24,156 nucleotides of DNA from a virus: positions 1 through 24,156 of the IMG/VR virus record IMGVR_UViG_3300006865_000029, one strand, 5' to 3'. The notes under the pieces were generated by a model, which saw only the letters and a list, made by a program, of their open reading frames with translations, did not search any database and had not been told where the DNA came from. The position numbers and the translations under genes were made by a program. Position 1 is the first letter of the stretch. Every line of letters begins with the position of its first letter. Below are positions 2,593 through 11,244 of this stretch, one piece after another.

Positions 2593-3456
2593 ATGAGTTT
2601 ATATACCATTGACGAAGGCGCATACAAGCCACAAAAGCCTGGGCTAACACTTTCACCCTCTTCTATTGACACGATGGAGAAATGCCCTCGTCAATACTTC
2701 TTGCAGTATATTGAGAAGATAAAGGTAAAGGACGAGAAGCCTGCTAATACCTTCGGCAAGATGATGCATTTGATTGCCGAAAATTACAAGGGTGGCGGCG
2801 GTGAGGAAATCAAGGGCTTGGCTAAGTGTTTCCAGACGAATGAGAAGCTACGGGCTAAGTATTGGGATAAGCTGGACGATGAGTATAAGAGCAAGATTCC
2901 ACAGGCATTGAAGAATCTGCATTACTACCTGACGAAGCGGTATCCGCTGGCTGGGAATTTCAAGCATGAGGAATGCTTGGATGTTGTGGACTTCGACAAG
3001 ATTGGAGAAACGAATATCCACTTGCAGGGTAAGCTTGACGGGTTATATGAGCTTTCCGGTAAGGTGTGGATTACTGACTTCAAGAGCGGAAAAAAGACAA
3101 AGGATCACAGTGGTCAACTTGGTTTCTATTTGTTCTTGATTGAGAAGCTACGAAGCCCATGGTTGAAAAATCGTGAAGTGTTTGCGGAAGTCGTAAACAT
3201 TTGCTTAGAGGATGGAACTGTTGGTGAGGCTGCTATAAACCATATAAAACTTGAATCGTATGACAGCAGCGTAGCCGAGAAGCGGGTGAAGAAGGCTATT
3301 GAGACACTTCGTAAAAATGGTATAAATGTCGAGGATAAAGAAAAATGGCAGCCTAAAAAACAAGTTTTATGCAAGTGGTGTAAGTTTTATAAGGTTCATT
3401 GTGATCCAGATAAAAAGTCTGGACGTCAAGGAGAATTTGAATTATTCGTAGAGTAA
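2593..3456 (+). CDS. PD-(D/E)XK nuclease, RecB/Cas4-like, with putative Fe-S cysteines
   Basis: The PDDEXK_1/RecB-nuclease pattern is visible in order. LSPSSIDTMEKCPRQYF (20-36) is the N-terminal signature. H59 follows a G-K-M-M stretch. GKLDG (D149) and ITDFKSGK (D162, K164) supply the metal-binding acids and catalytic lysine. Q175 and Y179 form the Q-x3-Y motif. C31, C260, C263 and C270 are spaced C-x228-C-x2-C-x6-C, as in AddB and Cas4 proteins where four cysteines hold a 4Fe-4S cluster, so a similar cluster is likely. Proteins of this kind are DNA exonucleases in recombination, repair or genome processing. It stands alone, without helicase or CRISPR genes nearby. The length of 287 aa is normal for stand-alone phage members. 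Confidence 0.9.
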   Translation: MSLYTIDEGAYKPQKPGLTLSPSSIDTMEKCPRQYFLQYIEKIKVKDEKPANTFGKMMHLIAENYKGGGGEEIKGLAKCFQTNEKLRAKYWDKLDDEYKSKIPQALKNLHYYLTKRYPLAGNFKHEECLDVVDFDKIGETNIHLQGKLDGLYELSGKVWITDFKSGKKTKDHSGQLGFYLFLIEKLRSPWLKNREVFAEVVNICLEDGTVGEAAINHIKLESYDSSVAEKRVKKAIETLRKNGINVEDKEKWQPKKQVLCKWCKFYKVHCDPDKKSGRQGEFELFVE

Positions 3457-3460
3457 ATAA

Positions 3461-3619
3461 CTACGATTGGTTATTTGTTTCGCATATGAATGCTCCAGGA
3501 GCATTCACTATTATACTACCAGCTTCTTCCGCTTTGTAGTCTAACATCTCTAAAAAATTTCCCCATCCACAATCGCTAATGTGTCTTGCTAAGGTTGTAT
3601 AACCTTCTTTCAACATTTT
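3461..3619 (-). pseudogene. tnpB: Remnant of an IS605-type TnpB (OrfB) gene
   Basis: On the minus strand an open frame contains LARHISDCGWGNFLEML followed by DYKAEEAGSIIV. This matches the conserved TnpB stretch around the second RuvC motif, where the first Glu of KAEEAG is catalytic. Only about 45-50 residues remain. The RuvC-I part is absent upstream, and the zinc finger and RuvC-III Asp are lost, because the frame ends shortly after at 3461. The open frame extends back to 3709, but its first 30 residues do not look like TnpB and overlap the next gene. I read this as a dead fragment of a transposon-associated, RNA-guided nuclease gene, based on recall of the family and not on an alignment. 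Confidence 0.6.
3488..3506. repeat. 19-base near-perfect palindrome
   Basis: GAATGCTCC (3488-3496) and GGAGCATTC (3498-3506) are exact inverted repeats around one base. As RNA this gives at least a 7-bp hairpin. It lies 31 bases after the nuclease stop and inside the TnpB remnant. No T-tract follows on the + strand, so a terminator is only weakly supported. Confidence 0.6.
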
Positions 3620-3634
3620 CTGTATAGAGTTAAA

Positions 3635-3642
3635 TATAAATT
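3635..3642 (+). promoter_or_regulatory. Candidate T4-late-like promoter of the glycan island
   Basis: TATAAATT matches 7 of 8 bases of the T4 late octamer and lies 20 bases before the ATG at 3663. A GGGAG ribosome site (3654-3658) follows in the leader. The flanking DNA is AT-rich, so chance is possible, but position and spacing fit the other candidates. Confidence 0.4.
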
Positions 3643-3662
3643 GATGGTAGAATGGGAGTATT

Positions 3663-6605
3663 ATGACATTCAAGATACTTACGGGCGATACCAAAACTTT
3701 TCCAAGCATCCCGCAGAGAGATATTTCACCAGTAATCTCACAATTACCACCATATAATCCAAATGGTAAAAAGACATTTTGTTACTGGACGGTTGCCGAT
3801 GGTAAACATGGAGAGATGGCTAAAGCCACTGTCAAATCTGCTCGTAACTGCGGCGTAACCGCTGACTTCCACATCTGGACAGACTTACCCGAAATAGAAG
3901 ATGCTACGGTTCATCCATGTGGAAACTTTGATAAGAAGCTCTACATGTTCAAGTTTCATTTCTTGAAGAATGAAGTAAGCAAGCTCAACTACGACTATTA
4001 TGTTTTCTTTGATGCTGATAACTTTTTTGTTCGCGATCCTGGTGACTTGACACGTTTGATGTCTGATACTAATAGAGTCTTCGTTCAAATGGAAAATGAC
4101 TGCGATCCCAAGCGTAGTAAACGCAAAGATTGGTGGAGTTGTCCAATAGATAAGTGGGGTCCGCTGCTGAATGATATGGGTGTTCGTAAAGGTCAGGTAT
4201 GGAACACCAACGCCGGATTCTGGATTGTTGAGCGTAGCGTGGTTGATGAGTTCTATCGTCTTGGGGTGAATTTCTTCGAGGAAGGACACCGCAGAGGTTA
4301 TAAGGGATTCACCGAGGAACCATCTTTGGCTTATATCGGTCACATGCTTCAGAAGCCAGAAGACAGAATTTTTGAAAAGACTAATTGGTTGTGGGGTTCT
4401 GACTGGACTGGAAACTGGAAAGATAAGATACCAACTGGTGCTGAATGGAATTTTGAGGACTACATGAGCGGGGAGAAAAAGCCTGTCAATCCATGCATAG
4501 TTCACGCCATGCGTTCTAAAGACGCTATGATTAGTTGGTATAAAAGTGATAAGCTAGAAGTGTTGAGCGGTGGCTTTTGGTGCGGTCATAACCTTTTGGG
4601 GGATGTTGTAGGGTTTGTTGCAGCGGCGCATCTCATGTATGTAAAAACTGGAAAGAGACAGAAGGTTTGGTTCCAAGAGGCTCGTAAGGATATATTAAAG
4701 TATTTTGATGGGGTTGATTGGGTTCCTAGAGAGTTTATACCAAATGCTATAGATGCTGGTAGGGATCCGAAGCGTGAAGAGTGGGATAATATGAACGGTG
4801 TGAAGAGGTTTTATAAGTGGATGGATCCTTCTCTGACAAATCCAAAGACATTTGATATCCATATGAAGGGTGAGAGATTAACCGGACATAAACTAATAGG
4901 ACTAATAACTCATGCAAATACGCAGGGTGATATACCTAACCATATAGTTGATGAAATGGTATCGGAGGCTCGTAAGAAGTATCCAGAGCATAAGATAGTT
5001 GCAATTGGAAACATGGATAATAAGTATGTCCCGAAGGGTGTTGAAGATTGGCGTCAGAGTAAAGGTGATATAAAATGGATAGTGGAAACTGTTCGTAAGT
5101 TAGATTTGTTGATAACGCCACAAACAGGACCGTGCTTTATTGCCGCCGGATATAGAATACCAATGTGGGTTTATAGAAGTAAAGAATCATTTTGGGATAA
5201 TGTTTTGAATTATGATACTTATAAGGTCGAGAGATGGTGGGATAGAGAGATTAATGATATTGATATTTCCGTCGAATCGGATATTACAAAGATAAAGAAG
5301 ACAAAAAATAAATATAAGAAGATTTTATGTTCTACAAAATTGTTAAACTTGTTAGATAAAAATTATCTATCGGTTGGTGGTTTCGTCCAGGCTAATAGAG
5401 GAACCGAGGCAGACGATGTAATGGTTCGGAAATTCTGTGAAAATAATGGATTTCTATTCTTTATTGATGCTGACAAATATTACTGCATAAACTATAAGAA
5501 AGAACATAGAAAGTATGAATACATAGGGTATGGCACATCATGCCGAGCATTTAAAGCCGGTTCCGTTGCGGTTAAGATATATCATCACTTCACAGAAGAT
5601 TATTATAATCAACTAATGGAAATCAAACAGGATTTTATAAAATTTCCGAAAAGAATCTCAGATAACATTATCAAGTGCAACGATAGAGACATCCATATAA
5701 TAGAAGAACAATTTATTAAGAATGATAAATCGGTATCGCGGGAAGTTTTCTTGAAAAGTATGGAATCATTTACTAAGTTGGTTTCTGACGATAATAGATT
5801 CCGTAAGATTGATTTGTACCTGAGTAATATTAAATGTAATTCAGGTAACATTTATCTTATTGACACTCATCGTAGAAATAAGTCAGAATATAACGATTTT
5901 GTTCTTGACCGTGAAAGTTGGAACAAATATATGCAAAAGACAATAACGGTAGATGGTAATGTTTATCTTGAGTCTTATTGTAAACATACAAATTTGGTTT
6001 TTGAGTCCGGTGAACTGAAACTAAAAGAAGTTATCAACAAAGAATATAACAATTACCATAAGGTAGGTAATACAGTTGGTAAAAGAAATTGCGAAGAAAG
6101 AATTAAAGAATTTGATGTGGAAGACATTAGAGACAAAACAATATTGGATATTGGATGTTCGATGGGTGGTATGATGATATCTGCGGTTGGAGTTGGAGCA
6201 AAAAAATGCATCGGATTGGAATACAATAGAGAAAGCGTAGATTTTATCAAGAAGTATTGTACGGAAAACAATATTTCGAATATTGATGCTAGATTACAAG
6301 ATATAGACGATTTCGATTGGTTTAGAACTATAGAAAAAGTAGATACCGTGTTTTTACTTTCAATATTGAATACCTCTAATTTTTCCGAGAAGGATGCGTT
6401 GATATCAATTGCAAATAGACTTGGAAAAGTATTATATATTGAAGGGCATAGTGGGGAGAATCATTTATCATACATGAAGAAGTTATATTATCATACAGAC
6501 TATACATCATTTTCACATAAATATGTTGTTGATGGGCTTGGAAAAAGACCATTGATTAGATGCGGATATGGTGGGTTCGTTATAGGTAAAAAGGAGTTTA
6601 AATGA
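3663..6605 (+). CDS. Four-domain glycan enzyme: GT-A, GT9-like GT, kinase-fold, SAM methyltransferase (980 aa)
   Basis: Residues 35-290 look like a GT-A glycosyltransferase: YYVFFDADNFFVRDP holds the DxD (D117, D119), followed by NTNAGFWIVE and EEPSLAYIGH. Residues 305-530 resemble a GT9/heptosyltransferase-type GT-B unit, with GDVVGFVAAAHLM at the start and TPQTGPCFIAAG (485-496) in the nucleotide-sugar half. Residues 615-760 show protein-kinase-fold landmarks: IGYGTS loop (621-626), VAVK (K638), D717-x4-N722 and LID (D734). Residues 800-980 carry a SAM methyltransferase, with ILDIGCSMGG (827-836) as motif I and GLEY (851-854) as motif II. Kinase plus methyltransferase recalls WbdD, which caps O-antigen chains by phosphorylation and methylation, although the order differs. 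GC content falls sharply near 5,280, between the second and third domains. It overlaps the next gene by 4 bases. The GT-A and methyltransferase calls are firm; GT9 and kinase are probable. Confidence 0.85.
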   Translation: MTFKILTGDTKTFPSIPQRDISPVISQLPPYNPNGKKTFCYWTVADGKHGEMAKATVKSARNCGVTADFHIWTDLPEIEDATVHPCGNFDKKLYMFKFHFLKNEVSKLNYDYYVFFDADNFFVRDPGDLTRLMSDTNRVFVQMENDCDPKRSKRKDWWSCPIDKWGPLLNDMGVRKGQVWNTNAGFWIVERSVVDEFYRLGVNFFEEGHRRGYKGFTEEPSLAYIGHMLQKPEDRIFEKTNWLWGSDWTGNWKDKIPTGAEWNFEDYMSGEKKPVNPCIVHAMRSKDAMISWYKSDKLEVLSGGFWCGHNLLGDVVGFVAAAHLMYVKTGKRQKVWFQEARKDILKYFDGVDWVPREFIPNAIDAGRDPKREEWDNMNGVKRFYKWMDPSLTNPKTFDIHMKGERLTGHKLIGLITHANTQGDIPNHIVDEMVSEARKKYPEHKIVAIGNMDNKYVPKGVEDWRQSKGDIKWIVETVRKLDLLITPQTGPCFIAAGYRIPMWVYRSKESFWDNVLNYDTYKVERWWDREINDIDISVESDITKIKKTKNKYKKILCSTKLLNLLDKNYLSVGGFVQANRGTEADDVMVRKFCENNGFLFFIDADKYYCINYKKEHRKYEYIGYGTSCRAFKAGSVAVKIYHHFTEDYYNQLMEIKQDFIKFPKRISDNIIKCNDRDIHIIEEQFIKNDKSVSREVFLKSMESFTKLVSDDNRFRKIDLYLSNIKCNSGNIYLIDTHRRNKSEYNDFVLDRESWNKYMQKTITVDGNVYLESYCKHTNLVFESGELKLKEVINKEYNNYHKVGNTVGKRNCEERIKEFDVEDIRDKTILDIGCSMGGMMISAVGVGAKKCIGLEYNRESVDFIKKYCTENNISNIDARLQDIDDFDWFRTIEKVDTVFLLSILNTSNFSEKDALISIANRLGKVLYIEGHSGENHLSYMKKLYYHTDYTSFSHKYVVDGLGKRPLIRCGYGGFVIGKKEFK

Positions 6606-7741
6606 ATACAACATTTTTAGAGTTAGAAAAAGATTTATTTGATTTTATTGATACATCATTGTATATATTATTACGATGTCAAGGTAAAAATACTATAAAT
6701 TATGGACAAAATGCACATGAAACGGAATATGCAAAAAACCTTAAAAATAATTTTTCCTCACTAAATAAAAATAGAGGATATGGTTTAAAATATCCACATC
6801 ATACTGGAATTATCAATACTATATTAATTAATAATAGAGAACATAGGCAAACAAAGCCTACAAACGAAGATTTTATTAATTTTGAAAAAGATAATCTACA
6901 TGGGGTGTTTCATGGTTTAATGACTTCATTTGTTTCTTTCATTCTGTTTAAAGAAAATAATTTACAACTAACTAATATTCAACAAAATGAATATTATATT
7001 AACTACTTTTTATCGTGTGTTTTACATGATTTTGCAAAAAAATATCCAAACCACGACTCATATATTAGATACTATTTCCCCCACCTAGTCGAAGAAACAT
7101 ATAGTCATTCTACACCGGATGATAAAACTCTACATTCAAATTTAATTATTTCGGATAGATGGGAATTATTAAGATTCCCCGATTGGGGTCAATGGGTTGA
7201 TATGGAAAAGGTATTATTAAAAAATAATCAAAGACTTAATAATAAATTATTGTTTTTTTATAAAAATATTAGACCACTTATAAATCAGTTAATTAATATT
7301 TGCGACAAACCACTTATTTCTCATGGGACAGAAATCGGTGATAATATAAGTAAATGCAAATTCAAAAAGTTTCCGGAAATACATTGGGGTAATTTTGATG
7401 ATGTTAATGTTTTTAGCGCATTCGATACTTATTTTGAAGATATGCCGAATGGCTGGAAGTCTTCGAAAATAATAGGCGTGCGCCCAATTATGAATATGCC
7501 TAATACAACTAAAAATTCTCCTATTTTTAGAGATCATATATTGGTCACTAATAATAATGATGATGACATAAAGAATTGGCTGTTTTTTAATAAAAGAAAT
7601 ATTTTGAAAAACGAAAAACAGAGTAATATCGAAGTTTCATTCCATAACAATGGAATCTTTACTTTAAATTCGTCACTCATGATAAAGTTTCTTCAACTAA
7701 GAAGAATGATATATTCACGAATAATGGTACATTCAATATAA
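6602..7741 (+). CDS. Unknown protein with HD-like His/Asp pattern (379 aa)
   Basis: Not confidently recognised. A helical stretch has HGVFHGLMTSF (100-110), then CVLHDFAKKYPNHDSY (139-154), H161, H178 and SDRWELLRFPD (184-194). This resembles the H...HD...D metal-binding order of HD-superfamily phosphohydrolases, which cleave phosphoesters or phosphoanhydrides, but the fit is only visual. The protein is very rich in Asn, Lys and Ile, and its DNA is extremely AT-rich (8 G/C in 60 bases at 7201-7260). The start overlaps the preceding stop (ATGA), so it is translationally coupled to the four-domain enzyme. A role in nucleotide-sugar or glycan phosphate metabolism is a guess from position. Confidence 0.7.
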   Translation: MNTTFLELEKDLFDFIDTSLYILLRCQGKNTINYGQNAHETEYAKNLKNNFSSLNKNRGYGLKYPHHTGIINTILINNREHRQTKPTNEDFINFEKDNLHGVFHGLMTSFVSFILFKENNLQLTNIQQNEYYINYFLSCVLHDFAKKYPNHDSYIRYYFPHLVEETYSHSTPDDKTLHSNLIISDRWELLRFPDWGQWVDMEKVLLKNNQRLNNKLLFFYKNIRPLINQLINICDKPLISHGTEIGDNISKCKFKKFPEIHWGNFDDVNVFSAFDTYFEDMPNGWKSSKIIGVRPIMNMPNTTKNSPIFRDHILVTNNNDDDIKNWLFFNKRNILKNEKQSNIEVSFHNNGIFTLNSSLMIKFLQLRRMIYSRIMVHSI

Positions 7742-7753
7742 GGAAAATATTCT

Positions 7754-8347
7754 ATGAATATAATTCTATTTAATCATATTCCAAAAACGGGTGGTAGGGC
7801 AATTGCCCGACATCTAAGAAATAATCTTGATAAATTTCATGATACAGGAAATTACTCGGATATAGATTTTAAGAATACTCGCCACAATTTACAAAAAGAT
7901 AATAAAAGATTTGAATCCCCAAATAATTTTATATTTACTATACTTCGCCACCCATATGAGAGATATGTAAGCGCAATCAATCACTTACACACCTTTCCAA
8001 ATACGAAAAAGAATTTTATAGACGGACTACATGAAACCAAGAAGAATGTTGCATTGGATATGGATTTGATTATAAACTTACCAGATATTAGAAGAAACCA
8101 TCTTATATTTCGCGATCAGACTAAACATATAAGATTACTCAATCATGATTATATACATAGATATGACAAGCCACTTTCAGATATTGTTGTAAAGATTAAC
8201 GAAAGATATAACATGGACTTTCCTTTGGAAATAGATAAATTCAATGTCTCTAAACAGATATTCAAGGTTAGTGACTTAACAGAGGAACAAAAAAGTAAAA
8301 TTCATAAAATATATAAGACGGACTTTGAAATATATGACACCGTTTGA
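7754..8347 (+). CDS. PAPS-dependent sulfotransferase (197 aa)
   Basis: The N-terminal HIPKTGGRAI (8-17) is the 5'-phosphosulfate-binding loop of the membrane-type/carbohydrate sulfotransferase family (Sulfotransfer_2-like), with K11 contacting the phosphosulfate. FTILRHPYERYVSAINH (61-77) is the 3'-phosphate-binding motif, with R65 and S73 as the expected contacts. Such enzymes move sulfate from PAPS to a hydroxyl of a sugar. The protein is short for the family, which usually runs 250-350 residues, but both cofactor motifs are intact. No signal peptide or membrane anchor is present, so it would act in the cytoplasm on a lipid- or nucleotide-linked glycan or on a virion protein. An AAGGAA site lies 8 bases before the ATG. 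The APS kinase that would supply PAPS lies 1.4 kb downstream. Confidence 0.88.
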   Translation: MNIILFNHIPKTGGRAIARHLRNNLDKFHDTGNYSDIDFKNTRHNLQKDNKRFESPNNFIFTILRHPYERYVSAINHLHTFPNTKKNFIDGLHETKKNVALDMDLIINLPDIRRNHLIFRDQTKHIRLLNHDYIHRYDKPLSDIVVKINERYNMDFPLEIDKFNVSKQIFKVSDLTEEQKSKIHKIYKTDFEIYDTV

Positions 8348-8825
8348 AATAAATATTCGGAAGAAAAAAAATCCAGACGGTACACCGGGAAATTCAGGAG
8401 CCGGTCTTTTTTGTTTCTTACAAGGAATCTTAAAAAGATTTAATATTGCACATCACAAACGCGGCAGCGTCAAGGCTCATGTCGAGTTGGACAGCTTACT
8501 ATATAAAGCAGATGGAAGTAATATATGGGACATATTTTTTGTTAATCCTAAAGTTCCAGATGATGCTCCTACTAGATGGTATTCAAATACTACTGGAGCA
8601 ACTCAATTAATTAACTCAAACCGCCGAATGTATTCAGATACTTTAAATAAGTATTTTATAAAAAACAGTATTTTCAGTGGTCGTTTAAAAGATGAGGTTC
8701 GGCAACTTGGGATTGATAATAGAACCCTCGGCTTACATTATAGGGGAACTGACAAGTATAAAGAGTATTATGGGAGAAAGCATATTGACTATGATTTATT
8801 TTATCGGGAGTTAAATCGCAACTAG
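8334..8825 (+). CDS. Fucosyltransferase-like glycosyltransferase, N-terminal part
   Basis: GLHYRGTDK (133-141 counting from the ATG at 8334) matches the H-x-R-x-T-D GDP-fucose-binding motif of the GT23/NodZ and O-FucT group, and NPDGTPGNSGAGLFCFLQ (13-30) resembles the glycine-rich N-terminal loop. An upstream in-frame TTG at 8325 is possible, but the ATG at 8334 is preferred. Either start overlaps the sulfotransferase end. The reading frame ends at 8825 in the middle of the expected fold, and the missing C-terminal half continues in the -1 frame to 9136. Either a frameshift made this a broken gene, or a programmed -1 shift at GTTAAAT (8810-8816) yields a 267-residue protein. Confidence 0.75.
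   Translation: MTPFEINIRKKKNPDGTPGNSGAGLFCFLQGILKRFNIAHHKRGSVKAHVELDSLLYKADGSNIWDIFFVNPKVPDDAPTRWYSNTTGATQLINSNRRMYSDTLNKYFIKNSIFSGRLKDEVRQLGIDNRTLGLHYRGTDKYKEYYGRKHIDYDLFYRELNRN
8810..8816 (+). promoter_or_regulatory. Possible -1 ribosomal slippery heptamer
   Basis: In the upstream frame the bases read G TTA AAT, the X-XXY-YYZ phase of a slippery site. GUUAAAC, one base different, is the known slippery sequence of equine arteritis virus. A -1 slip here joins the two halves of the glycosyltransferase exactly. No strong stimulatory structure is obvious just downstream. Loss of one A from an AAAA run gives the same frame change. Confidence 0.35.
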
Positions 8826-9136
8826 GTAATTATAATAAGATATTTCTGGCAACCGATGAAGTAGATTTTGTTGAGTATATTGAAAAAGCCAATCTTGGAG
8901 TACCAATAATCAAACAAGATATTAAAAGAATTCGAAGAGGAACGGATATAGCTATTCATAAGAGCAAGAATTTTACTGAAGATGAAAAGTTATGGGGGGC
9001 AATGCTAGATTGCTATCTTTTAGCTGAATGTGGTAGTATAGTTCATACCAGATCGAATTTATCTTGTTTCAGTCTTTTGATTAATCCAAATACAGCAAAC
9101 ATTCATGTCACTTGGAATAAGGTAAATATATTATGA
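8816..9136 (+). CDS. Fucosyltransferase-like glycosyltransferase, C-terminal part in the -1 frame
   Basis: These 106 codons stay open from the frame-change point to a TGA that overlaps the next ATG (ATGA at 9133-9136). They begin SQLGNYNKIFLATDE, a natural continuation of the upstream FYREL, and end with LDCYLLAECGSIVHTRS followed by NLSCFSLLINP. That pattern is typical of the C-terminal half of the fucosyltransferase-like GT-B fold, where the Ser/Arg-rich loop binds the GDP part. No ATG with a ribosome site begins the segment. The first internal ATG, near 9001, would give only a fragment, so it is unlikely to be made as a separate protein. It is either the frameshifted C-terminus of the 8334 gene or the tail of a pseudogene. 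The retained overlap with the next gene suggests recent or no decay. Confidence 0.6.
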   Translation, partial: SQLGNYNKIFLATDEVDFVEYIEKANLGVPIIKQDIKRIRRGTDIAIHKSKNFTEDEKLWGAMLDCYLLAECGSIVHTRSNLSCFSLLINPNTANIHVTWNKVNIL

Positions 9137-9756
9137 TAAAATTTTTGAAAAACGAATGTAGTTTATATGTTATTAATCTTGATAAAGATGTTGACAGAAT
9201 GAAATTCATTGATTCTCAACTTAAAAAATATGATATACCATATACCAGAGTATCAGGATCATATCGCCCACATAGACCAGTATTAGGATGTACAGAAAGT
9301 CACATAAAAGCAATTAATCAGTCACTATCAAATGATAAACATGCCGTTATTATTGAAGATGATGCTTTTTTCACTGAAGAATTTGATAAACATAGTATCG
9401 AATACGAAGACGCTTTAAAGAAACTAAAATGGGATATGGTGTTTCTATATTATTCAGGGCATCGCCCGAAAAAAGGAATTGTGAGAGAAAATGATAATAA
9501 TAATCTGTGGTTGAGAGGAAATACTTTTGGCGCTCATTTTTTTATAATAAATACATGTTTTAAGAAACGAGTATTAAATAATATTACTAAAAAAAATAAA
9601 CCTGTTGATAATATATATGCCGGTATGGTGAAAACATGCAATATGTTTGTTACCAAGTCTAATCTAGTAACTCAGAATTGCTCGTTTATGTCAAATATAA
9701 TTAATAAATTCAGAAATGATGGAAGCCATAATGGCATTTATATAAAAAAATATTGA
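9133..9756 (+). CDS. GT25-family glycosyltransferase (207 aa)
   Basis: The pattern of glycosyltransferase family 25 (LPS/LOS biosynthesis, often galactosyltransferases) is present. LYVINLDKDVDRM (11-23) is the N-terminal strand and loop. LGCTESHIKAI (51-61) is the conserved G-C-x-x-S-H motif. AVIIEDDAFF (71-80) contains the acidic metal-binding cluster (E75, D76, D77). Bacterial members add sugars to LPS or glycoproteins, using a UDP-sugar and a divalent metal. The length is a little short of the usual 230-280 residues, and the C-terminal part is poorly conserved. It overlaps the preceding frame by 4 bases, with no clear ribosome site of its own, so translation probably depends on the upstream gene being read to 9136. 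Confidence 0.87.
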   Translation: MIKFLKNECSLYVINLDKDVDRMKFIDSQLKKYDIPYTRVSGSYRPHRPVLGCTESHIKAINQSLSNDKHAVIIEDDAFFTEEFDKHSIEYEDALKKLKWDMVFLYYSGHRPKKGIVRENDNNNLWLRGNTFGAHFFIINTCFKKRVLNNITKKNKPVDNIYAGMVKTCNMFVTKSNLVTQNCSFMSNIINKFRNDGSHNGIYIKKY

Positions 9757-9796
9757 TAACAAATCTTTCGACACCAAAATAAAAGGAGTTAATTAA

Positions 9797-10318
9797 ATGC
9801 CTATTAACATATGGATTATGGGTTTATCGGGATCGGGAAAAACCACTATTGCTAATTACATCAAAAAAAACTATCTCACGGAATACATGTTATTGGATGG
9901 TGATGAATTTAGAAATGGTATAAGTAAGGATCTTGGCTTTTCCCCAGGTGATAGAATGGAAAATATAAGAAGATGTGCCGAAATATGTTTGTTGGCAAAT
10001 CGCAGCGGGGTTTCTACCATATGCTCATTTATAACCCCATTAGATTCTCAGAGAAATATGTTGCGTGATATACTTGGCGACTCTTTATTACTTTGTTATC
10101 TAAAATGTTCCGTAGAAGAATGCATTCGCCGTGATGTTAAGGGGTTATATAAAAAGGCAATTAACGGGGAAATACAAAATTTTACCGGAATTGATTCTGT
10201 ATTTGATATACCAACTTCCGTGGATTTGACAATTGATACTGAAATTATGACAATTGACGAATCAATAAAGTGTATGTTGAAAGCATTCCCCAAAGAATTT
10301 AAAGATTACGGTATATGA
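9797..10318 (+). CDS. cysC: Adenylylsulfate (APS) kinase
   Basis: All CysC hallmarks are visible: the Walker A loop GLSGSGKT (9-16), LDGDEFRNGIS (33-43), the LGFSPGDRMENIRR segment (46-59), SFITPL (77-82), and KGLYKKAINGEIQNFTGID (115-133), the lid region that closes on APS. The enzyme phosphorylates APS with ATP to give PAPS, the universal sulfate donor. At 173 aa it is a stand-alone kinase without a fused ATP sulfurylase. AGGAG lies about 10 bases before the ATG. It is the last + strand gene of the island, and its obvious customer is the sulfotransferase at 7754. Phages are known to carry cysC as a metabolic gene for sulfur assimilation, but here a sulfation role is more economical. APS must come from host ATP sulfurylase or an enzyme outside the window. 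Confidence 0.95.
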   Translation: MPINIWIMGLSGSGKTTIANYIKKNYLTEYMLLDGDEFRNGISKDLGFSPGDRMENIRRCAEICLLANRSGVSTICSFITPLDSQRNMLRDILGDSLLLCYLKCSVEECIRRDVKGLYKKAINGEIQNFTGIDSVFDIPTSVDLTIDTEIMTIDESIKCMLKAFPKEFKDYGI

Positions 10319-10389
10319 TTTCACTTCATTGGTTCTAGAATTCGTGTCGTTCCGCTGAGTATGAGGTAAAGCGGGTTCACGGGACTGAT

Positions 10390-10410
10390 AAGCCATTTCG
10401 GGCTTCTTCC
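10390..10410. terminator. Weak bidirectional hairpin between convergent genes
   Basis: AAGCC (10390-10394) pairs with GGCTT (10401-10405) around a 6-base loop, with CTTCTTCC following on the + strand. It lies between the convergent APS kinase and methyltransferase genes, where termination is expected. A second small inverted repeat, CCGCT/AGCGG, lies about 35 bases to the left. The stem is short and the U tract imperfect. Confidence 0.3.
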
Positions 10411-10421
10411 CCATCGGCTCC

Positions 10422-11193: not shown

Positions 11194-11244
11194 TTACTTA
11201 TAACCAAGGGGAAAGAAACCCCGTATCTCAAAAGGAGAAAACAA

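Follow-up and report, generated by a model that had tools for sequence, protein, structure and literature searches.

Introduction

The closest described systems are TnpB-only insertion elements and deleted derivatives of IS605. Campylobacter phages CP220 and CPt10 carry the TnpB-only IS200/IS605 elements ISCaje1-3, which are described as IS elements in virulent phage genomes (PMC2853527). Core-deleted IS605 derivatives, named PATEs, are described for Haloquadratum (PMC3119063), and tnpB next to putative CRISPR arrays is mentioned for phages of Thermus (PMC11437467). For the TnpB of ISDra2, mutating D191 or E278 is reported to compromise function (PMC8612924).

The locus described here is a tnpB fragment in a window of 24,156 nucleotides, the whole stretch of DNA that was analysed (IMG/VR record IMGVR_UViG_3300006865_000029, positions 1 to 24,156). 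The closest sequence found is on a second phage contig, IMGVR_UViG_3300037851_000298, called L002 below, where a gene encodes an intact TnpB of 381 aa. The segment that follows RuvC-II in IS200/IS605 TnpB proteins (ISDra2 type, NF040570) is alike in the remnant, and the right-end tip GGAGCATTCA of the L002 element is putatively present in it as well. Compared with IS200/IS605 TnpB elements, however, the remnant lacks the catalytic residues and the zinc finger, little of the right end is kept, and no left end was recognized. Like the CP220 and CPt10 elements it places tnpB sequence in a phage genome, but those were described as IS elements, whereas the window has a scrap. PATEs share with the remnant a mostly deleted tnpB and partly kept terminal sequence. 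They differ in having near-terminal palindromes at their ends and many copies; instead of palindromes at both ends and several copies, the window, itself a fragmentary record, has one palindrome with 10-bp arms and one copy of the remnant.

A further relic, IS605-like and unannotated, occupies an intergenic gap of Thermus phage YS40_Isch (91701-91978; 855-1132 of our extract L037). It keeps a 26-bp tnpB-like piece (CCTACAAAGAGGAAGAAGCTGGTAGG) from the same region of the gene as the window's. Unlike the remnant, it also retains a left end, with 94 bp that are 90% identical to the region before tnpB in Thermus phage T72. The 3' end of the T72 gene is matched as well, by a block of 27 bp. A tblastn search with L002 TnpB gave nothing significant in this relic.

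Genes of the tnpB type are common in phages. At E 0.001 the TnpB query P0002 had matches in 603 phage records; at least 80% of the query was covered at some place in 376 records, and in the other 227 it was not. Of the 603, 182 are Salinibacter phages, which among the matches listed align at residues 252-376 only. With intact or partial tnpB in so many phages, the remnant is an ordinary relic. Close relatives of this TnpB were found in one viral contig only (protein search, DNA pattern), and a scan of species genomes gave four distant loci in two archaeal MAGs, 41-61% identical over the best segment. The first 12 kb of the window had no megablast match in the phage collection.

A tnpB fragment without catalytic residues

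The minus strand at 3619-3461 is translated as KMLKEGYTTLARHISDCGWGNFLEMLDYKAEEAGSIIVNAPGAFICETNNQS*, with the stop at 3461. The features of the locus are the following.

2593-3456, plus strand: complete PD-(D/E)XK nuclease gene with its own stop (Pfam PDDEXK_1, E 1.7e-24)
3476-3514, minus strand: possible weak continuation of tnpB (IIVNAPGAFICET versus QVIYVNPAYTSQT), in protein register only, BLASTP to residue 325
3483-3496, minus strand: GGAGCATTCATATG, putative relic of the right-end tip, one arm of the palindrome (L002 right end ...GGTAGGGGAGCATTCACATATAAATAG)
3487-3507, no strand: perfect inverted repeat, 10-bp arms and 1-nt spacer (TGAATGCTCC-A-GGAGCATTCA)
3515-3626, minus strand: tnpB-homologous block, about residues 275-312 of L002 TnpB (L002:5377-5488)
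3635-3642, plus strand: TATAAATT, candidate variant of the phage late promoter TATAAATA, 28 nt 5' of the glycan-gene ATG
3641-3656, plus strand: decayed second nuclease-gene 3' end (TTGATGGTAGAATGGG; in the relative TTGATGGTAGAATAGG, stop TAG), then a ribosome site and the glycan-gene ATG
3663-6605, plus strand: 980-aa gene, the first glycan gene (methyltransferase domain at residues 824-922, E 4.7e-8)
5100-10362, plus strand: AT-rich, recently exchanged tract shared with the relative on contigs G003 and G006; left edge approximate

The first-pass annotation, made from the sequence alone, had read the fragment as TnpB debris, and database comparison agrees. Window 3515-3626 (minus strand) is 88% identical over 112 bp to the tnpB of L002 (E 1.4e-37), whose product is full-length by profile (NF040570, E 6.6e-90). 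The NCBIfam profile guided_TnpB, NF040570, matches the fragment at positions 299-338 of 389 (E 1.1e-6); the score, 28 bits where a whole protein would need 100, is expected, because only a fragment is present. These two matches place the fragment, by homology only, with tnpB-derived sequence. BLASTP aligned it to residues 275-325 of L002 TnpB with 34 of 51 identical (E 9e-23, a single comparison), and residues 290-320 of the ISDra2 TnpB structure 8bf8 also match (E 0.0034). A tblastn search against phages likewise found the similarity: 95 records matched at E <=1, the best at E 4e-5 over residues 6-34, and among the matches listed (40 of 95) the annotations are transposase, DNA endonuclease or hypothetical protein. 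A Pfam TNB-domain match is weak and under its cut-off (E 0.0034).

Not all of the 45 residues first assigned to TnpB hold equally well. Those within 3515-3626 do, whereas the last 17 (3464-3514) are weakly or not TnpB. The sequence 3' of the block (beyond 3515) was considered as simply diverged tnpB, which a DNA shuffle test did not support (1898 of 2000 shuffles as good), although the protein alignment does span 3476-3514. The fragment had also been described as the RuvC-II neighbourhood, which is right for its position, but the RuvC-II Glu itself falls outside the fragment and the window has Ile there.

At most, the fragment spans residues 275-325 of L002 TnpB, approximately 37-50 of 381. 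Outside it in L002 TnpB are GIDLG (183), the RuvC-II Glu (272), CSKC (326) and DRDYN (352), the catalytic residues being assigned by motif. The third RuvC catalytic residue sits in RuvC-III. Alignment to L002 TnpB leaves the fragment with none of the RuvC catalytic residues of a functional IS200/IS605 TnpB, and the C-terminal zinc finger (CxxC...CxxC) is absent from its translation, which ends ICETNNQS*. Lacking both, the piece cannot be a working nuclease, and with most of the right end missing too it is debris.

Within the block, 8 of 35 codons differ from L002, four synonymously and four nonsynonymously, and the frame is still open as part of an 82-codon ORF from ATG 3709. Decay is therefore not visible inside the block itself, a point against reading it as a decayed remnant. 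ATG 3709 lies antisense within the glycan gene, and inspection by eye of the minus strand 5' of the internal ATG 3616 showed no Shine-Dalgarno-like site. The remnant probably encodes nothing today.

Element ends and palindrome

The L002 element has a hairpin before tnpB (4391-4435) and, at its 3' end, the hairpin CCCCTACC/GGTAGGGG followed by GGGGAGCATTCAC. A search for matching IS605 ends around the fragment, suggested in the first-pass annotation, gave a probable tip on the right side and a weak alignment on the left. For the right end, the 41-nt segment 3457-3497 matched L002 at a score that 16 of 5000 shuffles equalled, and the 58-nt segment 3457-3514 at one that 35 of 5000 equalled; under a different scoring scheme the match was weaker, with 76 of 2000 shuffles reaching it. 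When the 58-nt segment was compared with both strands of the L002 contig, 3 of 920 half-overlapping slices scored as well, all covering the tip, and for the 41-nt segment 2 of 920 slices were as good, again only tip-covering ones. These comparisons suggest that the right-end tip GGAGCATTCA probably survives. The right-end hairpin CCCCTACC/GGTAGGGG of L002 is absent from the window remnant.

The sequence on the left-end side of the fragment showed no hairpin. Over 28 nt it aligned weakly with the part of L002 that precedes tnpB; 81 of 5000 shuffles were as good, and the score of 22 is bettered by a stretch on the other strand of L002 that scores 25. The case for a retained left end is weak.

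The palindrome folds as single-stranded DNA with a z of -3.27, and 1 of 200 shuffles was as stable. Its sequence, TGAATGCTCCNGGAGCATTCA, has no other exact copy in viral_contigs. An Rfam search around the fragment returned four matches, none at its own family's threshold.

The junction between nuclease and glycan gene

The remnant was reported to lie between the nuclease gene and the first glycan gene, and the coordinates (2593-3456 and 3663-6605) bear this out; it is antisense to both. The 980-aa gene has, besides its methyltransferase domain, a sub-threshold Glyco_tranf_2_4 match at residues 101-128 (E 0.021). The window nuclease ends EFELFVE-stop at 3456. Between this stop and TTGATGGTAGAATGGGAGTATTATG (3641-3665) stand, in order, 30 bp, the palindrome, 7 bp, the tnpB piece and another 14 bp.

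Nuclease relatives occur on three contigs. Two of them, G003 and G006, are one relative, identical across a 34,569-bp overlap, and the third ends within the nuclease gene, so that the remnant site is comparable with one relative only. There, the nuclease ends ...FDLMVE-stop directly 5' of the glycan gene with no remnant between. Window 3641-3665 is identical at 23 of 25 bases to the nuclease end, ribosome site and glycan ATG of G003, and in the window's copy of the nuclease end the stop TAG has become TGG. A decayed second nuclease end thus follows the remnant on its right, and the remnant lies where two sequence histories join. This supports recombination at the remnant site, whatever its cause, at a junction known from a single metagenome contig in which a chimeric join is possible.

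The reading that we favor, with a probability of about 0.82, is a decayed IS200/IS605-type tnpB element, shrunk by deletion and caught at an illegitimate join of two phage lineages. The genome that carries it is that of an uncultivated phage with T4-type baseplate genes. An ancestral phage would have carried a tnpB element downstream of the nuclease, and the element would then have lost most of its length by deletion. Illegitimate recombination would have joined the remnant to the final codons of a different nuclease allele, one that lay directly 5' of the glycan gene; this order of events is inferred from one relative only. The only likely effect of the remnant today is that it keeps the nuclease gene apart from the glycan gene, before which it may also leave the late-promoter-like TATAAATT.

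An older fragment unrelated to the glycan island, an ordinary insertion that decayed in the intergenic gap, is an alternative. In its favor, nothing found ties the remnant functionally to the island, other phages carry tnpB as well, and the remnant DNA is present in two of eight records, the window and, within its intact gene, L002. However, the duplicated nuclease tail puts the remnant where two histories meet, so that insertion into today's gap alone does not account for it, and we regard this explanation as unlikely. As it stands the remnant matters little, since it adds a further tnpB relic to those of other phages. Its use lies in marking the junction of nuclease and glycan gene as a place where phage lineages once recombined.

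Base composition and recent exchange

The remnant had further been placed at the edge of a compositionally distinct block. It does not lie there. G+C is 0.37-0.44 in the 500-base windows of 3001-5250 and 0.31-0.34 in those of 5001-6000; within the 980-aa gene it is 0.42 (4200-5100) and 0.33 (5100-5700). The drop falls at about 5.1-5.3 kb, inside that gene.

Synonymous-site difference from G003 is 0.55 in the nuclease and 0.61-0.95 in eleven other comparable flanking genes. Along the 980-aa gene it is 0.26 (3663-4200), 0.58 (4200-5100) and 0.25 (5100-5700), and it is 0.02-0.11 in six genes or gene parts between 5253 and 10318. The tract in G003/G006 is approximately 97% identical to the window. 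Recent exchange thus spans about 5.1-10.36 kb, and the distance from its left edge to the remnant is some 1.5 kb. For three genes at 38-1608, the left end of the window, G003 has no counterpart. Nuclease codons 34-121 (window 2692-2955) show synonymous differences of only 0.10 from G003 and 0.23 from G002, with 0.43-0.79 in the codons either side; this stretch may be either an intragenic conversion tract or a sign of hidden constraint on the DNA.

No other TnpB match was found in the window (fragment query at E <=1; L002 TnpB query at E <=1e-6), hence none at the right edge of the tract, 10362. The two contig records of G003/G006 gave no TnpB match at E 0.1, though the island is present, and query P0002 matched one of seven related records, L002's own. 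The related records are fragments, so TnpB absence is valid for the parts they cover; G003 and G006 cover the site. A relative covering the remnant site and lacking the island was not found.

These results weigh on the proposal that the remnant is the entry point of the glycan island, which would have come with a TnpB element or been cut in by one. The remnant does sit at a recombination scar directly 5' of the first glycan gene, and in 100-base bins across 3700-4200 the window is 89-97% identical to the relative, far more so than in the nuclease tail. Against an entry point, the composition change and the recently exchanged tract both start about 1.5 kb to the right of the remnant. The island is also present in the relative, whose records gave no TnpB match, and the window has no other such match, including at 10362. 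The similar low-divergence tract at 2692-2955 inside the nuclease gene, away from the remnant, also speaks against it. We consider an entry point quite unlikely. Of the mobile-element origin suggested for the island, the recombination scar at the remnant stands, but no link between TnpB activity and island arrival was found. The remnant does not explain the arrival of the neighboring sugar-modification genes. Transposon scrap beside an unusual gene block need not be the cause of the block's arrival, since here the edge of the block was measured at about 1.5 kb from the scrap, and a relative that lacks the scrap carries the block too.

Past RNA-guided cutting of rival alleles by TnpB, with repair, could have made the mosaic, including the nuclease/glycan junction, the element having since decayed. 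We give this very little weight; if true, TnpB would be a phage homing nuclease spreading a surface-modification cassette. A short functional TnpB-derived product, either a small protein or a regulatory RNA, is hardly credible, as the open frame and the stable palindrome fold that speak for it are set against the start codons (one without a Shine-Dalgarno-like site, the other antisense inside the glycan gene), the lack of any Rfam match at family threshold and the absence of another exact palindrome copy in viral_contigs.

A possible late-promoter-like site before the glycan gene

The phage that carries the remnant has late-promoter-like sites. The sequence TATAAATA, the T4 late promoter consensus, was found at 31 sites in the eight pieces scanned, and at 16 of them an ORF of 60 codons or more has its ATG 24-29 nt further 3'; the scan left out pieces L028, L030 and L031-L033, counted one site twice where pieces overlap, and counted relatives' homologous sites separately. 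Among the TATAAATT sites listed, 1 of 17 has the 24-29 nt spacing, and it is the one at window 3635. The L002 contig has TATAAATA 26-27 nt 5' of the ATG both for the intact tnpB and for the gene after the right end. Reading of the relative's nuclease end revealed no TATAAATT-type site there, and a scan of 3300-3800 for sigma-70-type promoters and terminators found none. The position of TATAAATT suggests that it may act as a late-promoter-like site for the glycan gene.

Other features of the window and its relatives

Within its first 1.6 kb, the 980-aa gene has two parts (window 3779-5246) that match L010 7980-9493, where they are two separate neighboring ORFs in reversed order relative to the window gene. 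L010 1795-1847 also matches window 3664-3612 on the opposite strand (53 bp, 79%, E 3e-5); this match lies inside L010 ORF 1656-2021 and was set aside as not being an element end. The HNH protein encoded at window 943-1608 matches IscB (E 1.4e-10) and Cas9d (E 5.8e-12) profiles in its HNH part, under the curated cut-offs.

Assemblies of relatives break on both sides of the island. Contig L022 ends at window-equivalent 3299, L026 begins at 11214 and L029 begins 287 bases before 11164; L022 and L026 share their sample of origin (3300035394). The relative carries approximately 450 extra bases at window 10362-10420, where the tract has its right edge. Genes of the cassette include a sulfotransferase family member (7754-8347), a glycosyltransferase-family-25-like gene (9133-9756) and an APS-kinase gene (9797-10318), and by their family assignments the exchanged cassette is a possible phage-borne route for sulfating a glycan.
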